In this document: piece after piece, positions 1,925 through 18,416 of the stretch
Layout of the letters: the number at the start of each line of letters is the position of its first letter
How positions within the stretch are numbered: the stretch's first letter is position 1
Assembly: GCA_016209155.1 (NCBI GenBank)
Contig: JACQWU010000091.1
Span: 1 to 18,965, forward strand
Length of the DNA stretch: 18,965 nt
Direction of reading: 5' to 3'
Source of the DNA: Candidatus Desantisiibacteriota bacterium
GTDB lineage: Bacteria > JACRDZ01
Made by a program: the position numbers and the translations under genes
The notes under the pieces: model-generated
Told to the model about the DNA's origin: nothing
Databases searched by the model: none
What the model saw: only the letters and a program-made list of their open reading frames with translations

Positions 1925-1960
1925 ATGATTTGGAATTTCAAATCTCAAATCTCAAATTAG
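1925..1960 (+). CDS. Possible 11-codon leader ORF across the heptamer repeat
   Basis: AAGGAG (1914-1919), overlapping the synthase stop, lies 5 bases before an ATG that opens an 11-codon frame (MIWNFKSQISN, then TAG). Most of it is encoded by the CAAATCT repeat. It may be translated and affect initiation of the acyltransferase at 1974, or it may be only the original start region displaced by a repeat insertion. No homology supports it as a gene. Confidence 0.2.
   Translation: MIWNFKSQISN
1939..1959 (+). repeat. Tandem heptamer CAAATCT (three units, last degenerate)
   Basis: The units are CAAATCT (1939-1945), CAAATCT (1946-1952) and CAAATTA (1953-1959). The array sits between two near-copies of AGGAGATGA (1915-1923 and 1964-1972), each of which is a ribosome site plus start region. 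The direct repeats are exactly 49 bases apart. Confidence 0.75.
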
Positions 1961-6534: not shown

Positions 6535-9500
6535 GTACCTCATATCCCCTTAACACCTGATCCATTTCATGTCTTACCGGTGTTATATCTATACTCATTT
6601 TGCGTAATTGTTTTATGCAATATAGAATATCTTTTATATTATGCTCTAAATCGTCTTGATTATCTTGCGATCTTGAATATATTCTATTTAATTTATTAAT
6701 AATCTTCCCTCTTTGCGCTCTATCATTATCATTACTTAATTGCCATGTATTTATTTCTACCAATATATTTTGTATTTGCTGTTTTAAACTTGCGGTTACT
6801 TCAAGTGTTAATATTTCTTTTTTCCATAATTCCCATGTATCATTTGTTTTAAATTTTATTTCCGTTTCTGTATTATAAGTGCCGCTTTTATCCGGCAGTC
6901 GCAGAGCATATTTTAGTTCTACGGGTATACTTGTATCAAATATTTGTTCATTCCATGTTATTGTATGATCTGTACTGTTTCCATTTGTATTTAGTAAATT
7001 TAAAAAGTAGTCATAACTTTCTGTTATCATTAAGCGGCATGGATTATCTGCTTTAATCTTTGTGTGTATTGGTACTGTATTAAGCGCATATTGTTCTATT
7101 TCTTCCGGCATAACATATTTTACAGCCTTTGTAAGTATTGCTGTTATTATATCTTTTTGTACCACTTTATCGGGTCTAAATGTTATTAACACTGTTTTTC
7201 CCCGCCCGTATGTGTTTATTACGATTGCTGAAAAAATTTTTTGACTGGTATTTTCAATTTCTTCAAAATCTATTTCCATTACTGTGAAATTACCTATTTT
7301 TGTTTCTTCTTCTAAACTTTCAGTAATATTTATTGTTTGATTATATGTAACATTTTCCCCATTGGTTATTGTAACTATAAATTTTCTATTTCCTTTTAGA
7401 TCATTTACCCGTTTATTTAAGCTGAATATTACTTCATCATCTGAAATTTTTTCTATTATCAGATTACCGTTATTATTGCCTGTGTTTTTGTCTATTTCTG
7501 TTCTTTCATATCCGCCGGTTATGTTCACTGTTTCATAATCAATATTTTCCGCTTCAACTCGCACAAAATAATTTACATTTTCCACAAATTCATAATCACA
7601 AAGAAGAGCAATTTTTCTGCAATTTTCTTTTTTTATTTTTTTATCATCGGTTTGAGCTGCTATGGTTCCTGTTTTTGCATTTGCCTTTAAAAGCTCTGAT
7701 ATAACCTGGATGTTTGTTGTATCGCTTATACTGCTATTACCAACATTTATTGTCCGGGTTTTTTCCTCACTATGACCTTTAAATTTAGTCCCGGTAAGGT
7801 CTTCGAATAATCTCTTATTGCCGTTTTGCTGCGTTTTTATTAATATGAGTCCATCCCCGTGATTTATTGTTTCAGCAAATTCTTTTTGTATTAAATGATT
7901 ATTTAATATTCTGTCTTCTGTATTCTGACTTCTGTCTTCTGTTATCACATATGTATTATATCCATGACTTCTGAATTGATTTAAAAATTCTTCATTTGCA
8001 TTGACTATTTTGTATTCTGCATTTGAATTGTTAAATATATTTGTGAGTATTGTTGTGTCAAAATCCGAAGCTCCATCTATATATACGAGTACTCTTGATA
8101 ATGGGGTATTGATTTCTTTATTTACTATAAGTGATAGTGATGGTTTTGGTGTTGCTTCAACCGGTTCAGATAGCGCGCTCTCATTGTCCACTCTATCTAC
8201 TGCGCTTACCCAATATGTGTATACAGCATAGTTGATAAGCCCTGTATCCATATAATTTGTTGTTGTAATAATTGCTTCATTTATTTTCCTTCTGTCTTCT
8301 GGATTCTGACTTCTGACTTCACTATATATGTTGTATCCAACTGTATCTCCGCTTTGCGCAAGCCATGATACATCTATTTGTTTATCTCCGGGTTGCGCGG
8401 TAATACCGATTGGTGGTGAAGGCGGAATTGTATCGAGTGTTATTGTTCCACTATTGGATATTACACTTGAATTGCCTTGCGAATCTGTTGCAATAACGAG
8501 TATTACATTATCTCCTTCTGTAAGAGATATCTCATAGCTAAACTCTCCGTTTTCACTTGCAGTTACATTTCCCGCTTTTATACCATTTTTATAGATATCT
8601 ATGCTTGCATTGGCAAATGAAGTGCCTGATATTGCTGTATCATTGTTTGTTATGGTTACTGGAGTATTTAAAAGAGGCGCGGATAGTATTTTTGTTGATT
8701 GTAATAATATATTGTTTGTTTCGTCATATTCTTTTATTATATTTTGTGGATCAACTTTTACATATATTGTCTGTGTTCCTTCAAGTCCTGTGATGTTCCA
8801 GTTTATTATAGCTTCGCCTGTTGATCCATCATCAATGAGCTCGGGGATGGTTTGCTGCCCTATAAGTATTCCTCCTGCTTCAGGATTACCGCTGTATATT
8901 TCAACCAATATGTTATCAGCTTGATTTTTTCGCTGTTTAACTATTACTGCCTTTATTTGTTTTGTATTATCCGGATTTGTGCTTCCAATTGTTATGCTCG
9001 CAACTTGTAAATCAGGCAAATTTGTTCCATATGTAAATGCGGCTATTTTTTCGCTTGTTAATGATCCTGCAGAAAGATGCGATGTTACTTGATGCGTTCC
9101 GGGCGGATTGATTTGAGATGACTCTATTATGGTAGTATCTATTGTAAATCCTGATGCCGATACTGTTTTACTTATTATGTTTGTGCTATCAAGTTTTATC
9201 TCCAGACTTCCCTCAGCTCCTGTGCCATATATTGTTGTGTATATTTTCATCTGTTCCGTTCCATCGGGATAATCTGTTTTGTCAGTTTCCGCTCCAACAA
9301 TATTTATATCTCCCACATCAAACGCTTCCTGCCCGCCAGCCATTACCTGCGCTGTGTTATCATATATACTATATATTAATTTATGTATCCCGCTTTTATT
9401 TGTAATTATATTCCCTGTTAAATTAACCTCTGTCTGACCTGTTATAAATGATGCTGGAGATTCTATTACAGAATTATCTTCATCATCAGGTGTATTTATC

Positions 9501-12226
9501 CATGCCCGCAGTATGCCATCTTTGTTGTAGTTGCTTTCCACTATCATTTTTGCTGTAAATGTATCACCCGGTATATATTTCCCCTTATTCATATTAAATT
9601 CAACAATTTTTAGCTTTATTCCATTCACATCAAAGTTATGTGTCCCGGTGATTGGCGGTAGTAGGACAGGCATTCTGCCTGTCATGTTAAACGTATAGCT
9701 GATATTATACGTCCCCCCTTGCGTATTTTCCGGAATCGTAAATCGTTGAGTAAGACTGCCGCTTGTTATGTCGCCATCATAATTATATCCACCCGGTCCC
9801 GATATTTTTAGATTACCGTCTTGCGCTGTTTCAATTGTCACAAATACTATTTCTCCGGGTATATACACCTCCCTATCTGTTGTTACATTTATTATGTCCT
9901 TTTGTTCGTACAAATAGATTGTATTTAAATGTATGCTTCTTCCGTCTTTATGATATATCCCATAAAATACTTTCTCACCCGTGAATCTTGCGATTGGAAT
10001 ATTAAAATTTAATTGTGTATTCCCGTTTAATGAAAAATTTTGGGCAATGGATGTTGTATCATAATTCACTTTTGCAAATAATTCAGGCGCTGTTCCTGCA
10101 TTATTATTGGTAATATTAAGTGTCAGTCTGGCAGTCTCTCCAACTATATATGCCGGTTTATCAAAATTTGCCTGTACACTTAAATCTATTCCTCGAATTG
10201 TAAATGGTATTTCTAAAACATTCCCATTTAAATATACTTTTGCCGTGTATGATTTTGCTTCCATATCATTAGGAATGCTGAAATTAAAATCAAAATTTTG
10301 TATGCCGGCAGGTGAAATAAAAGCCTCTTTTTCACCACTTTCTATATCCAATACTTCAAGTTTAACTTTTGCCATACCGGTTCTTTGTCCTGTATTTCTA
10401 ACTTGAAAGTTCATTGTGACAAACTCGCTTAGGTTGTAAACAGGAGAACCCGGTATAGAGGTAAATTCAAAAGTCGGGGCTATGACTTCAAGGTTATAAA
10501 TTTGCTCCGTTATGGCATTGCCGTTATATAAAACAGATACTGTCAGAGGATATGTTCCGCCTGATACTGCGGCAGGATTGATATTAAATGTATAGGTATT
10601 TGAATTCCCGCTTAATACACTGCACTCTCTTTGTTCTGTATAGAATGATGCTGATATATGTATGCTCCCTGAAAAATCATCAAACCCATTATTTGCAATA
10701 TTCACTGCAACAGGAATAAGCCCATTGGTGATATTGCCGGCAGTTATATCTGTTATCTGCATGTTAATATGTTTTTTTACGTCAAAAAATACACTCCTCG
10801 AATCAAATATTTTGTTAGGCACATTTGCTACGTCGTGCATTATGTAGGGCAAAGCTTCAGCTTTGCTTATTATCTCATAGTTCCCTGTTCCAAGCACAAA
10901 GTTTACTTTATCGCTGTAATTTCCACCTTTTGGTATATATATTGTTTTCTCCCTTCTGACTTCTGAACTCTGCCTTCTGACTTCAAAAACACAATTTGCC
11001 TCCACATCCAGCAGTCCTGTATTCGTAAAAATATATGGAATTGAAATCTCCCCTTCAGGATATACTGAATTTGCATTAACCATCAGTGTCCCGCTTTCAC
11101 TATAGGTAACAGTTTTAATTATTGTTGTATCATAGTCTCCTGATATATTTATCCTTATTGTGGTATCAAATGTTGTTGTAAAATTCCTGTTTATTAAACA
11201 CGTTGTCCCTTCATATATCGTTGTATCAAAGCTTTCTACAGCAAAGTTAATATTAAGTGATACGGGCACATTAGCAGGGTTTGTTAATCTAAGTGATACG
11301 TCAAATGGCTTTGCCCCAACAATTTCAGGGCAATTTAGTTCTGCGGTTATTTGTGGTTTTATTACGTTAATTGTATCTTTTATTTCAACAAGCACAGTAT
11401 TATTCGTATTTTTTACTTTGCCTATGAGTGTATATACACCGTCACTTTCATATATTCTATTTATTGTGAAGGGATAATTTCCATGAGAAGGCGCATCAAA
11501 TGCGGTTGTATAAAATTCCTGAGTGTTATTATTATGTTTTTCCGCAAAAACGAGTGATAAATTTGAGGCATCAATATCGGATAAGTTTTTTATTTCACCG
11601 CTTATTGTAACTAATTCATTTTCTTTATAATTCTTTTTATCAGTTCCAAATTGTAAGTATATATTGCCGTTTGCTCTATAGAAAGGATAAAAGTCCTCTG
11701 AAGCTATCTGTCCAATGTCAGAATATAACGTGCTTACAACAAATAATTTACCTGATATGTTATTTAGTAAACCTATATCTGTTGTGATTTCTGTTGTACC
11801 GGTTATATCGCATGGAATATTCTTCTCCATAATAACTTGAGCTTCAACCAGGTCCTGTGGATAAATTTCTATATCATCTTGAATTATAATAGGAGGGTTA
11901 AGCATACTATCCGCAAATTTACTTATGTCTGTATAATTCCCTGTATTATCAGAATACCAGAATATTTTTGCTGTACTTTCCGGGCTGCTGCTAAAGTCTA
12001 ATATTTTGTCGTAAGCATAAGTTCCTTCTTTATTACGACAGAAGTATGTTACTACATCTTTTGCAACAACGCCAAAAATAGTATTTATTTCAGGAATACG
12101 ATATGCAATATATTTTGGCTGTATATCCGAGCTATAATATGTTACCCATGATCCGCTGTTCATAAATTTTTCATCTCTATTTCCAGCTTTAACATAACTA
12201 AACTGAAATAATATACATGATTCCAT
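6506..12226 (-). CDS. Giant beta-sandwich surface protein, C-terminal section (CARDB, Ig-like, fn3, amidotransferase-fold)
   Basis: This is a 1906-residue open frame without a signal peptide. The ATG at 12226 touches GAGGA with no spacer, so it is probably not a real start. The text is best read as the continuation of 12160-15450 after a one-base frame change. It holds repeated sandwich domains that open with a (T)DKxxYxxGE-type phrase (for example FDKPAYIVGE, TDREVYIPGE, TDKTDYPDGT). A clear CARDB domain follows (about 1070-1175, LPDLQVASITIG to IKEYDETNNIL), then an Ig-like domain (about 1186-1262) and an fn3 domain (about 1266-1360, ending YTYWVSAVDRVDNES). Next comes an amidotransferase-fold-like region (VLVYIDGASDFD, HGDGLILIK, NTYGRGKTVLITF) and a helical C-terminus with no LPxTG, PEP-CTERM or membrane anchor visible. 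Three heptamer arrays lie inside it. It is probably exported, structural or adhesive; its role is unknown. Confidence 0.8.
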   Translation of the reverse strand: MESCILFQFSYVKAGNRDEKFMNSGSWVTYYSSDIQPKYIAYRIPEINTIFGVVAKDVVTYFCRNKEGTYAYDKILDFSSSPESTAKIFWYSDNTGNYTDISKFADSMLNPPIIIQDDIEIYPQDLVEAQVIMEKNIPCDITGTTEITTDIGLLNNISGKLFVVSTLYSDIGQIASEDFYPFYRANGNIYLQFGTDKKNYKENELVTISGEIKNLSDIDASNLSLVFAEKHNNNTQEFYTTAFDAPSHGNYPFTINRIYESDGVYTLIGKVKNTNNTVLVEIKDTINVIKPQITAELNCPEIVGAKPFDVSLRLTNPANVPVSLNINFAVESFDTTIYEGTTCLINRNFTTTFDTTIRINISGDYDTTIIKTVTYSESGTLMVNANSVYPEGEISIPYIFTNTGLLDVEANCVFEVRRQSSEVRREKTIYIPKGGNYSDKVNFVLGTGNYEIISKAEALPYIMHDVANVPNKIFDSRSVFFDVKKHINMQITDITAGNITNGLIPVAVNIANNGFDDFSGSIHISASFYTEQRECSVLSGNSNTYTFNINPAAVSGGTYPLTVSVLYNGNAITEQIYNLEVIAPTFEFTSIPGSPVYNLSEFVTMNFQVRNTGQRTGMAKVKLEVLDIESGEKEAFISPAGIQNFDFNFSIPNDMEAKSYTAKVYLNGNVLEIPFTIRGIDLSVQANFDKPAYIVGETARLTLNITNNNAGTAPELFAKVNYDTTSIAQNFSLNGNTQLNFNIPIARFTGEKVFYGIYHKDGRSIHLNTIYLYEQKDIINVTTDREVYIPGEIVFVTIETAQDGNLKISGPGGYNYDGDITSGSLTQRFTIPENTQGGTYNISYTFNMTGRMPVLLPPITGTHNFDVNGIKLKIVEFNMNKGKYIPGDTFTAKMIVESNYNKDGILRAWINTPDDEDNSVIESPASFITGQTEVNLTGNIITNKSGIHKLIYSIYDNTAQVMAGGQEAFDVGDINIVGAETDKTDYPDGTEQMKIYTTIYGTGAEGSLEIKLDSTNIISKTVSASGFTIDTTIIESSQINPPGTHQVTSHLSAGSLTSEKIAAFTYGTNLPDLQVASITIGSTNPDNTKQIKAVIVKQRKNQADNILVEIYSGNPEAGGILIGQQTIPELIDDGSTGEAIINWNITGLEGTQTIYVKVDPQNIIKEYDETNNILLQSTKILSAPLLNTPVTITNNDTAISGTSFANASIDIYKNGIKAGNVTASENGEFSYEISLTEGDNVILVIATDSQGNSSVISNSGTITLDTIPPSPPIGITAQPGDKQIDVSWLAQSGDTVGYNIYSEVRSQNPEDRRKINEAIITTTNYMDTGLINYAVYTYWVSAVDRVDNESALSEPVEATPKPSLSLIVNKEINTPLSRVLVYIDGASDFDTTILTNIFNNSNAEYKIVNANEEFLNQFRSHGYNTYVITEDRSQNTEDRILNNHLIQKEFAETINHGDGLILIKTQQNGNKRLFEDLTGTKFKGHSEEKTRTINVGNSSISDTTNIQVISELLKANAKTGTIAAQTDDKKIKKENCRKIALLCDYEFVENVNYFVRVEAENIDYETVNITGGYERTEIDKNTGNNNGNLIIEKISDDEVIFSLNKRVNDLKGNRKFIVTITNGENVTYNQTINITESLEEETKIGNFTVMEIDFEEIENTSQKIFSAIVINTYGRGKTVLITFRPDKVVQKDIITAILTKAVKYVMPEEIEQYALNTVPIHTKIKADNPCRLMITESYDYFLNLLNTNGNSTDHTITWNEQIFDTSIPVELKYALRLPDKSGTYNTETEIKFKTNDTWELWKKEILTLEVTASLKQQIQNILVEINTWQLSNDNDRAQRGKIINKLNRIYSRSQDNQDDLEHNIKDILYCIKQLRKMSIDITPVRHEMDQVLRGYEVLTAADMNSN
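7909..7943 (-). repeat. Heptamer array 1 (five units) inside the giant gene
   Basis: On the + strand the units are TTCTGTC, TTCTGTA, TTCTGAC, TTCTGTC and TTCTGTT. They are translated on the - strand as TEDRSQNTEDR. The array falls between YNTYVI and the helix leading to HGDGLILIK, apparently a loop of the C-terminal amidotransferase-like domain. Confidence 0.85.
8290..8320 (-). repeat. Heptamer array 2 (4.4 units) inside the fn3 domain
   Basis: On the + strand the units are TTCTGTC, TTCTGGA, TTCTGAC, TTCTGAC and a partial TTC. They encode SEVRSQNPEDRR. The array interrupts an otherwise ordinary fn3 domain between VGYNIY and INEAIITTTNYMD. Confidence 0.88.
10954..10984 (-). repeat. Heptamer array 3 (4.4 units) inside a beta-sandwich domain
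   Basis: On the + strand the units are TTCTGAC, TTCTGAA, CTCTGCC, TTCTGAC and a partial TTC. They encode EVRRQSSEVRRE. The array lies in a hairpin position between ANCVF and KTIYIPKGGNY. Confidence 0.85.
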
Positions 12227-15200
12227 TCCTCATTCTGTATTCTATCAAGATCATCATCCGGATTATTGTTGTTATTATCATCAAATCTAAAATCAGTTAT
12301 GATGTCCGCCCCATATCCCAGACACCCGTTTCCACCCCATTTTATACGCACACCTGAAGTTTTAAAATATTTGTTTGTATTATCTAAAACAGCAGATATA
12401 ACTCCATAGTCAGGTATTTCTTTAGCGCCATTTTCCAATATATCAAAATATAATACATAATGTCTTGTTACTCCGATAGGAGTTATTCCATCCATTATCC
12501 ATACTGCTTCTATTCCGGCATTTATTACTGCGTTATAGTCAGTTACTTTATTAAACTGGTATGGAATTTCTTTTATGATATTACCTATTGAATCATATTC
12601 AATAATCCTTATAGAATTTTCATCAAATGTTCCTGTTTTACCAATATTATTCAAAATTTCAGTAAAGCTTATATTCATTTCTATAGGTGAATCTTTCCGC
12701 TCATAATTACCGGACTCAATTTTTATTGGAATTCTATAGTACCAATCCGGATTCCACCATGTATATTTTTTAATAATTTGTTCCGGGACTGTGGCTAAAA
12801 CTTTTACATTTAAATTACCATTTAATATTTGTCCGCTATTCGCTGTGAAGCTTGTTGTTGCATTTATAGATTCGTTTGAAAAGTATATATCCTTATCGGT
12901 TTCAACTGCCAAAGATATTGAGTTACCGATCACTTCTGTTTCTTTGATAAAATAACTACTTTTATTTGTCTTAACATCAAGACATGACGCATGAACATAA
13001 TATTTTCCTGTTCTGGCACTATTTGGAATTGGCAGTTCAAGCAGAATAGTTGAATCGCTTTTGACAGCAGTTGTTCCGGTAACATTTGCAAATTTAAAAT
13101 TTCTTAAGTCATATAATTCAATGATGTAATTTACATCTGTATCCACCCCGCCTGTGTTTTCTATATTTAATCCTATGTTATTTCCTGATGAATATGTAGT
13201 ATTTGCAAGTCCAACAATGTTTATATTTGATTCAGGAATGGTAAATATAAAATTTTGAGTAAGTGTATTACCTGAAGAAGTCAATTGAACTTCTATATTA
13301 TGATTTCCATTTAACATTGTCTCCGGGATTACAGAGGTATAATTTAATATTATCTCAGTATCAGCAGAAAGTGTAATATCTTTTGTATCAATATATCCTG
13401 CATCAGGAACTTGCAATTTTACCTCCACATTTCCCATATTAAACTTACCAATGTTTTTTAAACTGAGCGATAAATTTGCCGTATCTCTAATTTTGTAAAA
13501 TGGTTTATCAAATGAAAGATTAGTTGCAATACTGCTTGGAATTTGTATTTTATATATTTCACCGGTATTTGTTTCATCAGATTGGATATATGATAATATA
13601 TAATTTCCGGATTTGAATAATGGTATGGGAACATCAAAATCCAATGCCATATTTCCTCCTGTTATAAGGGAAAATGATTTATTTTCTAGGAAGATTTCGC
13701 TTCCATCAGGATCTTTCAAACTAACACTTAAATTCCCATTTGATGTGTTTACTTTACCTGTGTTGGATAAGTTAAACGAGATATTGTTTGTACCGAAAAT
13801 AAAAGAAGATGGTAAATTAGGTGTTGTTTTTGTTTGACACCGCAGATGTTCAAAATAGATGGAAGCGTTACCTATTATTTTACCTTCGGTGTCATTTACT
13901 TCAACAATCGCTATGTAATATCCAAACTCCGAAACAGCAGGTAATGTGTAAGTATCATTTAAATTTAACACTGCATTGGATATAAAATTACATGCAAAAC
14001 TTTTTTCATAAATTTTAGCATTTTTAGGATCTAAAACTTTTAGTATAGTAGTTGAGGGAAATGAAATATTTTGCATATTATTTAGTGTTATATTTACATT
14101 AACTGTTTCATTTACTCCATAAAATGATTTATCCGTATTTACACCTGCTTGAATATTCGGCTGATATACATTAATTGCTCTTGAAGCTTCTCCAACTTTA
14201 TTACCATTCTCATCATAAAAATATGCCCAGAGTCTGTCGAGTGTACTCACGTTATTCAACGTATGCATAAAACTTGTCGAGCTATTCGGTGGTATAATCA
14301 TTGTTTTGGTGAGCTGTAGTTCCGGCTTCCACCAATCCCCGCCGTATTGATAATCTCGAGTAGTCCAAAAGTGATGAGGGAAAAAATATTTGCATGTAAT
14401 ATTTCTTTCCTCATTACTCCTGTTCCATGTGATTACAGTAAACACAGGATTGCTTCCTATCGCATAATTCTCTGCGTCAGATTGAACTGAAAAACTCAAA
14501 TCTGGGGAAGGTTGGATTACTGCCGGCGGGTCGGATACAACAAAATTCCCAGCAGATGATTCTTTTTGTATTTCTATACCTGATGAATCTAACAAAGCAT
14601 AAATTATACGCCAAATCCCAAGCTCATTTCCCGCTGTACCGGTATAATTTGTTGTAATTGATTTCCATGGTTCTATTCTGCCTTCTGAATTCTGTCTTCT
14701 GACTTCTTTTATTTCTCCATCCGGCGTCAATACACTGACACTTGCACTTACACTCTCTTTGTCTGTTTTATTTGTAATCGTAATCGGTAAACTTATGGAA
14801 GCTCCCGGACGATATTCCGACATCTCAACCGGATACTTTGAAAAAGCAATTATATCTCTAATTAAATTTTTCCCTGACTGGCTTGCTTGCCCAACACTTG
14901 TAGCATAATCCGTATAAATCGTTGTTGCCAATACATAACCTTTGCCATAAGGATAAAGGATCATACACGGTTGTCCATTTTTGGATCTTCTGAGCAAAAC
15001 TTTTGCATTACCTGGCCATTCAGTAAAAAATCCGTCAACTGGCTCTGATATTGTTGCTTGAGATTGCCCTGAAAGAATATTATGCCAATCCTGTATTTCG
15101 CAGGAATTAGACCAGCATGACATGTCTTCTCTCCACATGTAACCTGAAAGTACTTCGCCTTCTGGTACAGGAATGCATTGCAGATCACTGCTATGTTGTG

Positions 15201-15450
15201 TTGACATGACAACAAGAAAACCACCGGCAGATACATATTGTTCAAGTAATGCTTTAAATTGTGGTGATGAGTCATTACCTACGAGTGAACCCGTGGGGCA
15301 GACTAAGACTCTGGAAAAATTAAGCAAATCTTGTGGAGTTGTATTTATATCCGTCAGGATGCTACCATATTTAAAATTGCTGATTAAACTCTGCATTTGA
15401 AGAATTTTCTGAAGCATAAGCTGCTTTTTCCCAATTACATCTATTAGCAA
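12160..15450 (-). CDS. Giant surface protein, middle section (amidotransferase-fold domain plus CARDB/macroglobulin-like repeats, DUF2341-like end)
   Basis: This 1096-residue frame has only a TTG with no ribosome site at its 5' end. It overlaps the previous frame by 80 bases and the next by 67, so I read it as the middle of one frameshifted gene. Residues about 20-205 form a class I amidotransferase-fold domain paralogous to that in 17073-18416: QYVSAGGFLVVMSTQHS, the shared REDMSC..EIQDWHxxLSGQ segment, and YGKGYVLATTIYTDYA. No cysteine stands at the usual nucleophile elbow, so it is probably not catalytic. CARDB-like sandwiches follow, opening with phrases such as VNTDKSFYGVNETV, FDKPFYKIRDTANL and ETDKDIYFSNESI. 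The last 200 residues contain YTWWNPDWYYRIPIKI, typical of the DUF2341 start. Heptamer array 4 lies at residues 249-259. Confidence 0.8.
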   Translation of the reverse strand: MLIDVIGKKQLMLQKILQMQSLISNFKYGSILTDINTTPQDLLNFSRVLVCPTGSLVGNDSSPQFKALLEQYVSAGGFLVVMSTQHSSDLQCIPVPEGEVLSGYMWREDMSCWSNSCEIQDWHNILSGQSQATISEPVDGFFTEWPGNAKVLLRRSKNGQPCMILYPYGKGYVLATTIYTDYATSVGQASQSGKNLIRDIIAFSKYPVEMSEYRPGASISLPITITNKTDKESVSASVSVLTPDGEIKEVRRQNSEGRIEPWKSITTNYTGTAGNELGIWRIIYALLDSSGIEIQKESSAGNFVVSDPPAVIQPSPDLSFSVQSDAENYAIGSNPVFTVITWNRSNEERNITCKYFFPHHFWTTRDYQYGGDWWKPELQLTKTMIIPPNSSTSFMHTLNNVSTLDRLWAYFYDENGNKVGEASRAINVYQPNIQAGVNTDKSFYGVNETVNVNITLNNMQNISFPSTTILKVLDPKNAKIYEKSFACNFISNAVLNLNDTYTLPAVSEFGYYIAIVEVNDTEGKIIGNASIYFEHLRCQTKTTPNLPSSFIFGTNNISFNLSNTGKVNTSNGNLSVSLKDPDGSEIFLENKSFSLITGGNMALDFDVPIPLFKSGNYILSYIQSDETNTGEIYKIQIPSSIATNLSFDKPFYKIRDTANLSLSLKNIGKFNMGNVEVKLQVPDAGYIDTKDITLSADTEIILNYTSVIPETMLNGNHNIEVQLTSSGNTLTQNFIFTIPESNINIVGLANTTYSSGNNIGLNIENTGGVDTDVNYIIELYDLRNFKFANVTGTTAVKSDSTILLELPIPNSARTGKYYVHASCLDVKTNKSSYFIKETEVIGNSISLAVETDKDIYFSNESINATTSFTANSGQILNGNLNVKVLATVPEQIIKKYTWWNPDWYYRIPIKIESGNYERKDSPIEMNISFTEILNNIGKTGTFDENSIRIIEYDSIGNIIKEIPYQFNKVTDYNAVINAGIEAVWIMDGITPIGVTRHYVLYFDILENGAKEIPDYGVISAVLDNTNKYFKTSGVRIKWGGNGCLGYGADIITDFRFDDNNNNNPDDDLDRIQNEEWNHVYYFSLVMLKLEIEMKNL
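14671..14819 (-). repeat. Near-identical block shared with 17081-17236, copy A
   Basis: The 117 bases at 14703-14819 match 17120-17236 without gaps, with about eight differences by eye. They encode EYRPGAS..PITIxNKTDKESVSAS and onward. The rest of the two paralogous domains is far less alike, and the match ends at the outer edge of the heptamer array (TTCTATTCTG is shared, bases beyond are not). Confidence 0.85.
14676..14706 (-). repeat. Heptamer array 4 (4.4 units), open frame
   Basis: On the + strand the units are TTCTGCC, TTCTGAA, TTCTGTC, TTCTGAC and a partial TTC. They encode EVRRQNSEGR. In this copy the frame continues into EPWKSITTNYTG and the rest of the giant protein. One more unit would lead to a TGA about 20 codons later. 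Confidence 0.88.
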
Positions 15451-16978
15451 TTATCATAGCATTATATCGATCTATAGTTGTATAATTACTACAATTTCCT
15501 ATTTGCCCTACATGCTTATTTTCATGCACTTCAACAATTGGATAAAATTCAGAATTCTTTGGGCAATTGATTCTTGGTATGGGAGGACCATTTGTAAAAG
15601 GAAATGTACAAACAGTTACACCATCACATGGGATGTTTGGCTCTCCACAACTATCAGCAGGATCCATTGCAGGATTTTCTAAGCAATTTACATTACTTAT
15701 GCAGCTTTCTACACGTTTTCTTTCTTCGCAAATTATATTACATATTTCTAAATCACCTTCTCTAATAAACATTGGGCTATTGCATTTTTCATTAAAGCCC
15801 AATCGAAGAATTGATTCAGCAATAGCTTTATCTTCAATAAAAATTAACTCTTTTTGTTTAATATTGTTTGGAGTAATCTCTATTATTTCTGGATATTCAT
15901 ATACTTTAAATCCTGGTTCCATTTCTTTTTTACCAGTTTTAGTTCCTCTTCTTTTAATTTCCACTTCTATCATTACTAGTTTCCTCAATACAATATTATA
16001 TATTCCTGGTAATATACCTTTAAAAGATACTCTTCCATATTCATCTGATTGGTTTGCTATAGTATTATCAATATATCCCAAATTATTTTTATGAATTAAA
16101 GTTATATCTATATCTTTTAGGGCAGTATGTGTAGTATCAAAAATAGTAGCAAAAAAACCTGTAGTAGTATCAAATATAGGGTAAATCATAATACTTTTTA
16201 CATCTTTTGCCCCTCGTGTATCTACTGTGTGAGGATACTTATATTGAGCCATAAATGGATGATCTTCACCTCTATAATTATAATAAATGATTAAATTCCA
16301 ATTATTAGAATCCTCTAAGTGATTTAATACAAAATTCCCATTTTCGTCTGTAAGTTCACCAGGTCTAGCCCATCCATAAGTTATATTATCAATAATAGCA
16401 TTTCCACCTATAAAAGCTTCTTTTTTCCCATACGGGGTACCATCTTGATGCATTATTTTTCCAGAAATTGTTCCATAAACTTTCTTTATCTTAATATCTA
16501 ATCCAGTAATATTTTCTCCTGCTTGCAAATTAATTGGTAATTCATAGTTTCCCTGGTATTTATAAACATAATCATTCACAGACTTCTTCCCCATAAATAA
16601 TCTATATTTCTCACAATCAATACTTGTGTATAAAGAAGCTAATTTACCCATGCTTGTATCATAATAATAATGCCTATATTCTGTAGTAAAATCATTTAAT
16701 GATATTTTATATTCCCCTGGTGGTACTTTTTTAAACACATAATTCCCATTATCATCTGTCTTTTTATAGCTGTCGTATCCACAGGATAATGGCTTACACA
16801 ATTTTGGATCTAAGACATCTATGCTTACACCAATCCCTTTTACCGGTTCTCCGGTATCAACATTAATCACTTTTCCAGATATACTCCCATAAACTTCCGC
16901 ATAAATATTTCGTGATGCATTGAAAATAAAACATAGGAACATTAAAATTAATAATAATATTTTATTTGCTCTATTCAT
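15371..16978 (-). CDS. Exported carboxypeptidase-regulatory-like protein with HExxHVGQ motif (N-terminal section of giant protein?)
   Basis: The start is ATG at 16978 (MNRANKILLLI), because GAAAGGGGG lies 6 bases upstream; the in-frame ATG at 16999 would sit before that site. The protein is 535 residues. A signal peptide spans about 1-27 with a cleavage site at NIYA-EV. Two carboxypeptidase-regulatory-like domains follow (YGSISGKVINVDTGEPVKGI and YGTISGKIMHQDGTP, each with DxNGNxVxxxxxxG/E) and a third weaker one. The Cys-rich C-terminal part has HENKHVGQ (H485-H489) and then CNWEKAAYASE, a zincin-like metal-site pattern with a possible third ligand at E517. The frame ends at TAA inside the next frame. 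The paralog at 17073 carries the same motif followed by the amidotransferase-fold domain in one frame, so the stop here probably reflects a frameshift or an out-of-frame deletion. Confidence 0.8.
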   Translation of the reverse strand: MNRANKILLLILMFLCFIFNASRNIYAEVYGSISGKVINVDTGEPVKGIGVSIDVLDPKLCKPLSCGYDSYKKTDDNGNYVFKKVPPGEYKISLNDFTTEYRHYYYDTSMGKLASLYTSIDCEKYRLFMGKKSVNDYVYKYQGNYELPINLQAGENITGLDIKIKKVYGTISGKIMHQDGTPYGKKEAFIGGNAIIDNITYGWARPGELTDENGNFVLNHLEDSNNWNLIIYYNYRGEDHPFMAQYKYPHTVDTRGAKDVKSIMIYPIFDTTTGFFATIFDTTHTALKDIDITLIHKNNLGYIDNTIANQSDEYGRVSFKGILPGIYNIVLRKLVMIEVEIKRRGTKTGKKEMEPGFKVYEYPEIIEITPNNIKQKELIFIEDKAIAESILRLGFNEKCNSPMFIREGDLEICNIICEERKRVESCISNVNCLENPAMDPADSCGEPNIPCDGVTVCTFPFTNGPPIPRINCPKNSEFYPIVEVHENKHVGQIGNCSNYTTIDRYNAMIIANRCNWEKAAYASENSSNAEFNQQF

Positions 16979-16984
16979 AAATAT

Positions 16985-16993
16985 CCCCCTTTC
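16985..16993 (-). promoter_or_regulatory. Purine-rich ribosome site fixing the start at 16978
   Basis: GAAAGGGGG on the - strand stands 6 bases before the ATG at 16978. The matching N-terminus of the neighbouring paralog (MNSAKKILLII) supports the same start. Confidence 0.7.
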
Positions 16994-17072
16994 AATCAAA
17001 TCTTAAATTTTTCATAATTTCATCTGTCGCATCTTATTTCCTTGATATATTTCCCAACCTTAAATCCTTTGC

Positions 17073-18416
17073 TCACACCTTTCTATTCTGCCTTCTGAAT
17101 TCTGACTTCTGACTTCTGACTTCTTTTACCTCTCTATCCGGCGTCAATACACTGACACTTGCACTTACACTCTCTTTGTCTGTTTTATTTATAATCGTAA
17201 TCGGTATAATTACAGAAGCTCCCGGACGATATTCCGGCAGTATATCATTTGCATCAGGATTACTTGTTATATATTTTGCATAAGTAAGAATATCGCGTAT
17301 AAGCGCGCGTCCTGACTTTGTGCTTTGATTTATTGTATATGCGTAATCTTCATAAGTACATAATACAAAAACATATCCGGCACCAACTTTATACATAATT
17401 CCGGCAGGCTGTCCATTTTTCGTTCTGCGAAATAATATTTTTGCGCTCTCCGGCCAGGATGTCAAATACCCATCAGTATTGACGTCAAGAATAGCCTGTA
17501 ATTGACCTGATAAAACTTGATGCCAATCCTGTATCTCTATCCCTTTTATTTGGCACGACATGTCTTCACGATACCCATATCCTGAAACTTTATCTTCTCC
17601 TTCCGGAACTGGAAGCGCAGACCATTCATAACCATGCTGTTGTGAAAGGCATATTATTACACCGCCTGAAGTAACATATTCTTTTAATGTTGCTTTAAAA
17701 GTATCAGAATTTTCTAAACCAAAAATACCTGATTCCGGGATTAATAAAATAGAAGTATATGTTTTAAGTTTAATTGGATCAAAACTTATATCTGTAAATA
17801 TATTGGAACGTTTAAAGCTTCCGATTAAAGCTGAAAAACCTGTACTTTTACCATTTCTCAAAATAGCAACATCTGGAGTCTGTGAATAATATATTGTATT
17901 TGGATAAGTGGAGCTTGAAACGGAAAATGACTCATCTCCACCGTCGTTGTTATCATCTTCTTTTTTTTGAGCCTCACCCAGACAATCTAATTCCGCAATA
18001 TATGCTTGTGCATTAACTTCACAATTTAAACGAAAATAACCAGGTGTTTTATCCTGACCAACATGTATTCTTTCATGTAAAGTAGCACATGTTTTCACAT
18101 CAGCATCTTGATTCTCAGAATAATATCTTTTTAAATAAGTAATTCTAACTAAAGGAGTTCCATCCTCTTTTTCCGCATACATTCCTGTGTTTGCAAACTC
18201 ACCTGAACACACTGTATCACGTTGTGTATCATCTTCTCCAGCTCCACCCACTATGCATCTAGGCTCAGTTGGCCATCTAGATCTAGCACCAATCTCGCCT
18301 ATTCTTTGTTTCTTATTAACTTCATAACAACCCCCCACCAACAGACTTTGATGAAAAATTGATATATAAACTAAATTCATCAATATTATTAATAATATCT
18401 TTTTTGCGCTATTCAT
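17073..18416 (-). CDS. Exported or lipidated HExxHVGQ plus amidotransferase-fold protein, truncated at a heptamer array
   Basis: The start is ATG at 18416, with AAAGGAT 5 bases upstream and the previous gene's stop 13 bases away, so it is likely one operon. The 447 residues begin with a signal peptide (h-region about 7-25) and a possible lipobox LVGG-C30; ordinary cleavage is also possible. HERIH (114-118) in a HERIHVGQ motif is followed by NCEVNAQAYIAELDC (131-145), a zincin-like pattern with E133 or E142 as candidate third ligand. Peptidase activity is not proven. A Gly/Asp-rich linker (153-163) leads to an amidotransferase-fold domain (about 185-382: EYVTSGGVIICLSQQHG, REDMSC, EIQDWH, VGAGYVFVLCTYEDYA), then only the first 50 residues of a CARDB-like domain. 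The protein stops six codons past the array, so it is a short relative of the giant protein. Confidence 0.85.
   Translation of the reverse strand: MNSAKKILLIILMNLVYISIFHQSLLVGGCYEVNKKQRIGEIGARSRWPTEPRCIVGGAGEDDTQRDTVCSGEFANTGMYAEKEDGTPLVRITYLKRYYSENQDADVKTCATLHERIHVGQDKTPGYFRLNCEVNAQAYIAELDCLGEAQKKEDDNNDGGDESFSVSSSTYPNTIYYSQTPDVAILRNGKSTGFSALIGSFKRSNIFTDISFDPIKLKTYTSILLIPESGIFGLENSDTFKATLKEYVTSGGVIICLSQQHGYEWSALPVPEGEDKVSGYGYREDMSCQIKGIEIQDWHQVLSGQLQAILDVNTDGYLTSWPESAKILFRRTKNGQPAGIMYKVGAGYVFVLCTYEDYAYTINQSTKSGRALIRDILTYAKYITSNPDANDILPEYRPGASVIIPITIINKTDKESVSASVSVLTPDREVKEVRSQKSEFRRQNRKV
17081..17236 (-). repeat. Near-identical block shared with 14671-14819, copy B
   Basis: This is the partner of the block in the giant gene, seven bases longer because of one extra heptamer unit. 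Bases left of 17081 (CTCACACC) have no counterpart at 14663-14670, so the duplicated segment ends at the array. Confidence 0.85.
17086..17123 (-). repeat. Heptamer array 5 (5.4 units), frame closed
   Basis: On the + strand the units are TTCTGCC, TTCTGAA, TTCTGAC three times, then a partial TTC. They encode EVRSQKSEFRRQN, ending at KV-stop. This is exactly one unit more than array 4 with the same outer units. Confidence 0.9.

Follow-up and report, generated by a model that had tools for sequence, protein, structure and literature searches.

Heptamer arrays of the window and their host ORFs

We analysed a window of 18,965 nt from a fragmented draft genome (3.08 Mb, 352 contigs, 79% complete). 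Genes were taken from ORF calls only, and exported status was predicted from signal-peptide-like starts read by eye from the translations. The features are listed below by position in the window, with the basis of each in brackets.

1928..1957, no strand: heptamer array of another family (AAATTTC/AATCTCA), intergenic between plus-strand genes (TRF, contig scan)
6506..12226, minus: ORF of a giant exported-type protein, 1906 aa, with CARDB, Big_6 and fn3-like regions and three arrays (ORF call, Pfam, alignment)
7909..7942, minus: heptamer array, 4.9 units, coding TEDRSQNTEDRI, in the 1906-aa ORF, at a place where the loop differs in paralogs (TRF, ORF translation, paralog alignment)
8289..8320, minus: heptamer array, 4.6 units, coding EVRSQNPEDRR, in an fn3-like hairpin of the 1906-aa ORF (TRF, ORF translation, fn3 alignment)
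10840..10870, minus: small palindrome (GTAGGGCAAAGCTTCAGCTTTGC), in frame (SKAEALPY), part of an insertion that three paralogs lack (paralog alignment, repeat scan)
10947..10984 (TRF 10953-10984), minus: heptamer array coding EVRRQSSEVRREK, in a modelled beta-hairpin turn of the 1906-aa ORF (TRF, paralog alignment, structure model)
12160..15450, minus: ORF of 1096 aa (MG2-like), carrying the 14676 array and overlapping the 1906-aa ORF in another frame (ORF call, Pfam)
14671..14822, minus: conversion-like tract, first copy, ending at the array, with up to 98% identity to 17081-17239 (sequence comparison)
14676..14707, minus: heptamer array, 4.6 units, coding KEVRRQNSEGRI, in the 1096-aa ORF (TRF, ORF translation)
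17073..18416, minus: ORF of 447 aa with the 17086 array, a paralog of the N-terminal part of the 1096-aa ORF (51% aa identity) (ORF call, protein comparison)
17081..17239, minus: conversion-like tract, second copy, with homology extending only slightly beyond the array (sequence comparison)
17086..17124, minus: heptamer array in the 447-aa ORF (TRF, ORF translation)

As the original prediction had claimed, the window holds five TTCTGAC/GTCAGAA period-7 arrays in coding sequence; TRF, applied to all 18,965 nt, gave 4.6-5.6 units each with 76-90% matches, and all five lie wholly and in frame within minus-strand ORFs of 1906, 1096 and 447 aa. It was also confirmed that the plus-strand genes carry no TTCTGAC-type array, the AAATTTC/AATCTCA array being located between them. 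A two-unit pattern allowing up to two mismatches had 14 matches in the window, all on the plus strand, against 0.09 expected, and no shuffle of the window reached this number, which puts the tandem enrichment far above chance. The five arrays are not all independent: those at 14676 and 17086 have a stretch of about 150 bp in common. The fragmentation and incompleteness of the draft could suggest an assembly artefact or a chance pattern. However, the arrays are degenerate and, at 30-40 bp, shorter than a read, long ORFs remain open through them, and chance is already refuted by shuffles that give about none, so that we regard this explanation as extremely unlikely.

Pfam domains found in the giant exported-type family were CARDB, Big_5, Big_6, FG-GAP and MG2. 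At 12160-12226 the ORFs of 1096 and 1906 aa overlap, each in its own frame. Since the paralogs are single longer proteins, one gene may be split here by a frameshift, either real or due to sequencing error. At 423-465 of the window lies a palindromic intergenic element (ACCTGAATCTTGCACTTCAGATTCAGGT), similar copies of which occur in six sampled contigs.

In cyanobacterial STRRs, heptanucleotide units are the commonest. The window arrays, in which head-to-tail 7-bp units occur above chance, are heptameric simple tandem repeats of this LSSR/STRR kind, a class carried by many bacteria. Among long SSRs of 5-11 bp in prokaryotes, as far as the account of Mrazek 2007 cited in PMC4679880 goes, heptanucleotides are the commonest long unit and coding long SSRs are said to be mostly multiples of three; unlike the latter, the repeats described here are 7-mers within coding sequence. 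Heptamer direct repeats of the word TAACTGA, known from Beggiatoaceae, cyanobacteria and Bacteroidetes, have stops in all frames one way and the peptide cycle LSVISYQ the other way, with 11 ORFs carrying the open orientation; they are mostly intergenic and just upstream of start codons, with a few coding cases at protein edges (MacGregor 2015, PMC4679880). The present arrays share with them the seven-base tandem structure, the patchy occurrence over distant phyla and the logic of orientation. However, the word here is TTCTGAC with variants and not TAACTGA, the units are degenerate, and none of the five window arrays has the location upstream of a start codon; all five are internal to ORFs, in loops, and such arrays are concentrated in one giant exported-type family. 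The GGGNATC heptamers of Xanthomonas and Nostoc are G-rich, prefer four units, form G-quadruplexes and are under-represented in coding regions (Rehm 2015, PMC4692102). They are also short tandem heptamers dispersed in one genome, but their G-richness, quadruplex formation and coding scarcity distinguish them from the window arrays.

Distribution in the genome and across phyla

Many dispersed copies of heptameric tandem repeats were present in the genome, and TTCTGAC-type arrays were also found on contigs C285, C287, C99, C16 and C349. In a lag-7 scan of sampled contigs, period 7 dominated the tandem repeats and the words included AAGTCAG, AAGACAG, AAGGCAG, AAGGCTG, AATGAGC, AAATTTC and others, indicating a class of repeats and not one element. 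A reversed-word control could not serve as a clean null, since CAGTCTT also forms a heptamer family in this genome. The CAGTCTT heptamer recurs within intergenic palindromic elements (~70-100 bp, with AGGTnTTTAG-like ends) that often lie immediately upstream of genes (L016-L031).

Paralogs of the 1906-aa ORF were located by protein search on contigs C287, C196, C349, C285, C288, C313 and C99. These seven contigs, picked by that search and not by repeat content, formed together with the window the giant-family set, comprising 79.8 kb of ORF. The background consisted of 54 contigs chosen by index (417 kb; 364 kb of ORF and 53 kb non-coding). In the giant-family contigs, 24 of 25 arrays were coding, corresponding to 30 per 100 kb of ORF. 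On the other hand, background ORFs carried only 3 arrays (0.8 per 100 kb), and 11 of the 14 background arrays were outside ORFs, at 20.7 per 100 kb of non-coding DNA. Thus, the mostly intergenic location seen in the background is reversed in the giant-gene contigs, and coding arrays are enriched ~37-fold in one exported-type family relative to background ORFs. When the window was removed and duplicated domains were counted once, the contrast was 18 vs 3 arrays (binomial p = 6e-13). Background ORFs of at least 600 aa had 2 arrays in 86.6 kb, indicating that gene length is not the cause of the enrichment. Within the family the content varies: paralog C196 (2844 aa) has no arrays, and a 4514-aa homolog in the related genome G001 has one array only. 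Note that same-phylum relatives offered few homologs, with an array content too small for empty-site comparison.

The same word occurs far beyond this genome. The exact 21-mer (TTCTGAC)3 was found in at least 118 contigs from cyanobacteria, Acidobacteria, Nitrospirae, Bacteroidota, Verrucomicrobia and others, and in 50 viral contigs, where three permuted words were found in 11, 0 and 0. Across phyla, 45 of 126 arrays of the TTCTGAC word lay in ORFs of at least 150 aa. Of 20 array-bearing proteins tested, 18 had a Pfam domain, and the array lay within the domain in several of them, namely chorismate synthase, a BioA-type aminotransferase, RmlD, TrpF, a BioD-like AAA_26 protein and a radical SAM protein. 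Comparison with solved structures showed that the array adds 16 aa to chorismate synthase (vs 1q1l) and ~19 aa to BioA (vs 3dod), and is closer to a replacement than to an insertion in RmlD and TrpF. The original prediction had called the coding use of such repeats unusual. This holds within the genome, where other coding DNA is nearly array-free, but not across phyla, where more than a third of the arrays are in ORFs, several of them within conserved enzyme domains. One chorismate synthase (L079:289-1557) has a further repeat-like peptide, GEVRSQKPEARSQKG, in place of a loop of nearly equal length in 1q1l.

Arrays in variable loops of the giant exported-type proteins

One orientation of TTCTGAC is stop-free in every frame and the other has TGA in every frame, as originally stated and as verified on the word itself. 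The open orientation of all five window arrays had been offered as evidence in its own right. This is not supported, because the open TTCTGAC orientation is compulsory within an ORF, so that 5/5 is uninformative on targeting, and other words do occur closed. In fact, 10 of the 29 in-gene arrays of the giant genes, made of other words, had the closed orientation and carried sense codons in place of the periodic stop (TTA, GGA, AGA, CGA or CGT for TGA; TAT for TAG); five of these ten are copies of one duplicated domain. The open orientation reflects survivorship under purifying selection. Arrays are no sparser in the giant genes than in intergenic DNA, although for many words the loss of one orientation would be expected; targeting or selection could be behind this.

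The arrays sit in variable loops of the giant exported-type family, and two of them are beta hairpins. Specifically, the 10947 array runs from the end of one strand through a turn into the next strand in a structure model (mean pLDDT 84), and the alignment of the 8289 array to an fn3 hairpin leaves the length almost unchanged. Note that a model of residues 1176-1470 was of low quality (pLDDT 45.8) and was not drawn upon. The homologous loops of sister proteins hold another heptamer array, a GTAG palindrome or, at similar length, an ordinary loop. In the alignment of the 8289 site, a heptamer array was also present in paralog C285 and none in C287. At the 10947 site, C285 has a heptamer array, C287 a GTAG palindrome (peptide VETQNFASVQ), and C349 and C196 ordinary loops that are about as long. 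At a further site, between WAN/WAG and RIKLK, related repeat peptides that differ in length are present in four paralogs. Because the paralogs vary exactly at these places, the comparison, along with the hairpin-turn model and the fn3 alignment, supports the earlier suggestion that the arrays are tolerated as flexible loops. From the paralogs, the repeats seem to replace loops as much as they add to them.

Palindromes with GTAG feet are likewise in frame in the giant genes (6 in the 79.8 kb of ORF) and intergenic elsewhere; the other ORFs (364 kb) gave 3 inverted repeats, unrelated to them. These counts came from a general inverted-repeat scan, since mutated feet hide most in-gene copies from a strict search for GTAG palindromes. 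The palindrome at 10840-10870 is related to those of the giant genes. The heptamer arrays themselves are direct repeats, and no palindrome with a GTAG foot was found in them. Rickettsia palindromic elements (RPEs) and intragenic GTAG REPs are known (PMC10969869, PMC3733652), and the arrays resemble them as small dispersed DNA that unrelated genes keep in frame, probably where the protein forms loops or linkers; in-frame arrays occurred across phyla in unrelated protein genes, for example in chorismate synthase, BioA, RmlD and TrpF. However, RPEs and GTAG REPs are palindromes, some linked to a transposase, whereas the arrays have neither palindrome nor fixed ends, and instead of an RPE-type palindrome of ~150 bp with its own conserved peptide we found mostly degenerate tandem arrays of 30-52 bp. 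An IS200-like Y1 transposase (RAYT-like) is located just 3' of the C349 giant gene (L167:17852-18433), with GTAG-type palindromes around it.

Spread of the arrays and possible explanations

The 14676 and 17086 arrays lie at a tract of ~150 bp that is 90-98% identical within paralogs otherwise ~55% identical. The tract looks like the product of conversion or duplication with an endpoint at the array. Within it, the 17086 array has one unit more than the 14676 array, and this single difference between paralog arrays suggests slippage. In C287, duplicated Big_5 domains carry near-identical copies of one array. The repeat had originally been described as mobile or slipping; the one-unit difference agrees with slipping, whereas the evidence on array ends does not favour mobility as a unit. 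In a first count, GAAG appeared as a fixed sequence at array starts and ends, a signal that came from Okeania copies and the search pattern. After deduplication to one array of at least 28 nt per genus-like group, start phases across phyla were uniform (p = 0.80) and ends weakly biased (p = 0.016), which speaks against transposition as a unit. An array copied as a unit by a transposase, as are REPs with RAYT, would fit the same word in many phyla and in viral contigs, the GTAG palindromes in the same genes and the Y1 transposase beside one of them. However, besides the unfixed ends, no terminal hairpin or target duplication was seen at the heptamer arrays, and many different heptamer words behave alike, making such a mobile element improbable.

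Contingency repeats are usually longer and near perfect. The present arrays are like contingency loci with simple repeats, as in Haemophilus influenzae (PMC2651432), in having frame-shifting units in surface-protein genes. Seven is not a multiple of three, so gain or loss of one unit would shift the frame and could switch a surface protein off, and the one-unit difference described above would agree with such phase variation. But the arrays, unlike contingency repeats, are short (fewer than six units) and degenerate, which damps slippage, several occur per gene, and the one-unit difference lies between paralogs, one of which is truncated there anyway. We therefore consider phase variation very unlikely.

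Taken together, we think it probable that slippage or duplication recurrently gives rise to the arrays, that conversion and domain duplication spread them, and that they are kept in tolerant loops. Arrays would arise often and anywhere, through slippage or illegitimate tandem duplication, and most of those in genes would be lost by breaking the frame, bringing in stops or disturbing the fold. Long, loop-rich exported proteins may tolerate them; conversion from paralog to paralog and domain duplication would then spread some, and array length would be trimmed back to what the hairpin accepts. A dedicated function of the arrays would be unnecessary. Against this explanation by slippage and tolerance stand the period of seven and the preference for particular words, as among the viral contigs, neither of which it accounts for, and an array density in the giant genes that is no lower than the intergenic one. 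We also considered that exposed hairpins gain from fast change, with repeats as raw material that is kept or favoured. The coding enrichment in one exported family, the repeated replacement of the same loops by different repeats and the conversion-like tract at arrays would all agree with such adaptive diversification. Mere tolerance gives the same pattern, though, and the array-poor G001 homolog and the array-free paralog C196 argue against it, so that we find it rather unlikely. Similarly doubtful is the fuller proposal that surface hairpins are overwritten recurrently by unrelated short repeats (heptamers, octamers and GTAG palindromes), spread by paralog conversion and under selection.

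Heptamer repeats themselves are known; what looks new is their in-frame concentration in one giant exported family, together with loops that are overwritten repeatedly. Genes would be expected to lose repeats with a unit not divisible by three, yet such repeats reach intergenic-level density in one gene family. The same hairpins have been taken over independently, and elsewhere arrays lie within core enzymes, providing a testable case for non-coding repeat DNA turning into protein loop sequence. For annotation, SEVRSQK-like peptides should be read as translated repeat DNA and not as homology.

Other repeats were observed in the giant genes. The C285 gene is broken near a 15-bp tandem repeat at 1814-1858 (L163:1788-1882), with an overlapping ORF in another frame. 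The giant ORF of L164 (86-10684, minus strand) contains in-frame octamer-type repeats (INSSTQQPINSSTQ, SVRESESQS) and a SPQSSPTRGEEG peptide, which we take to resemble a widespread dispersed repeat.
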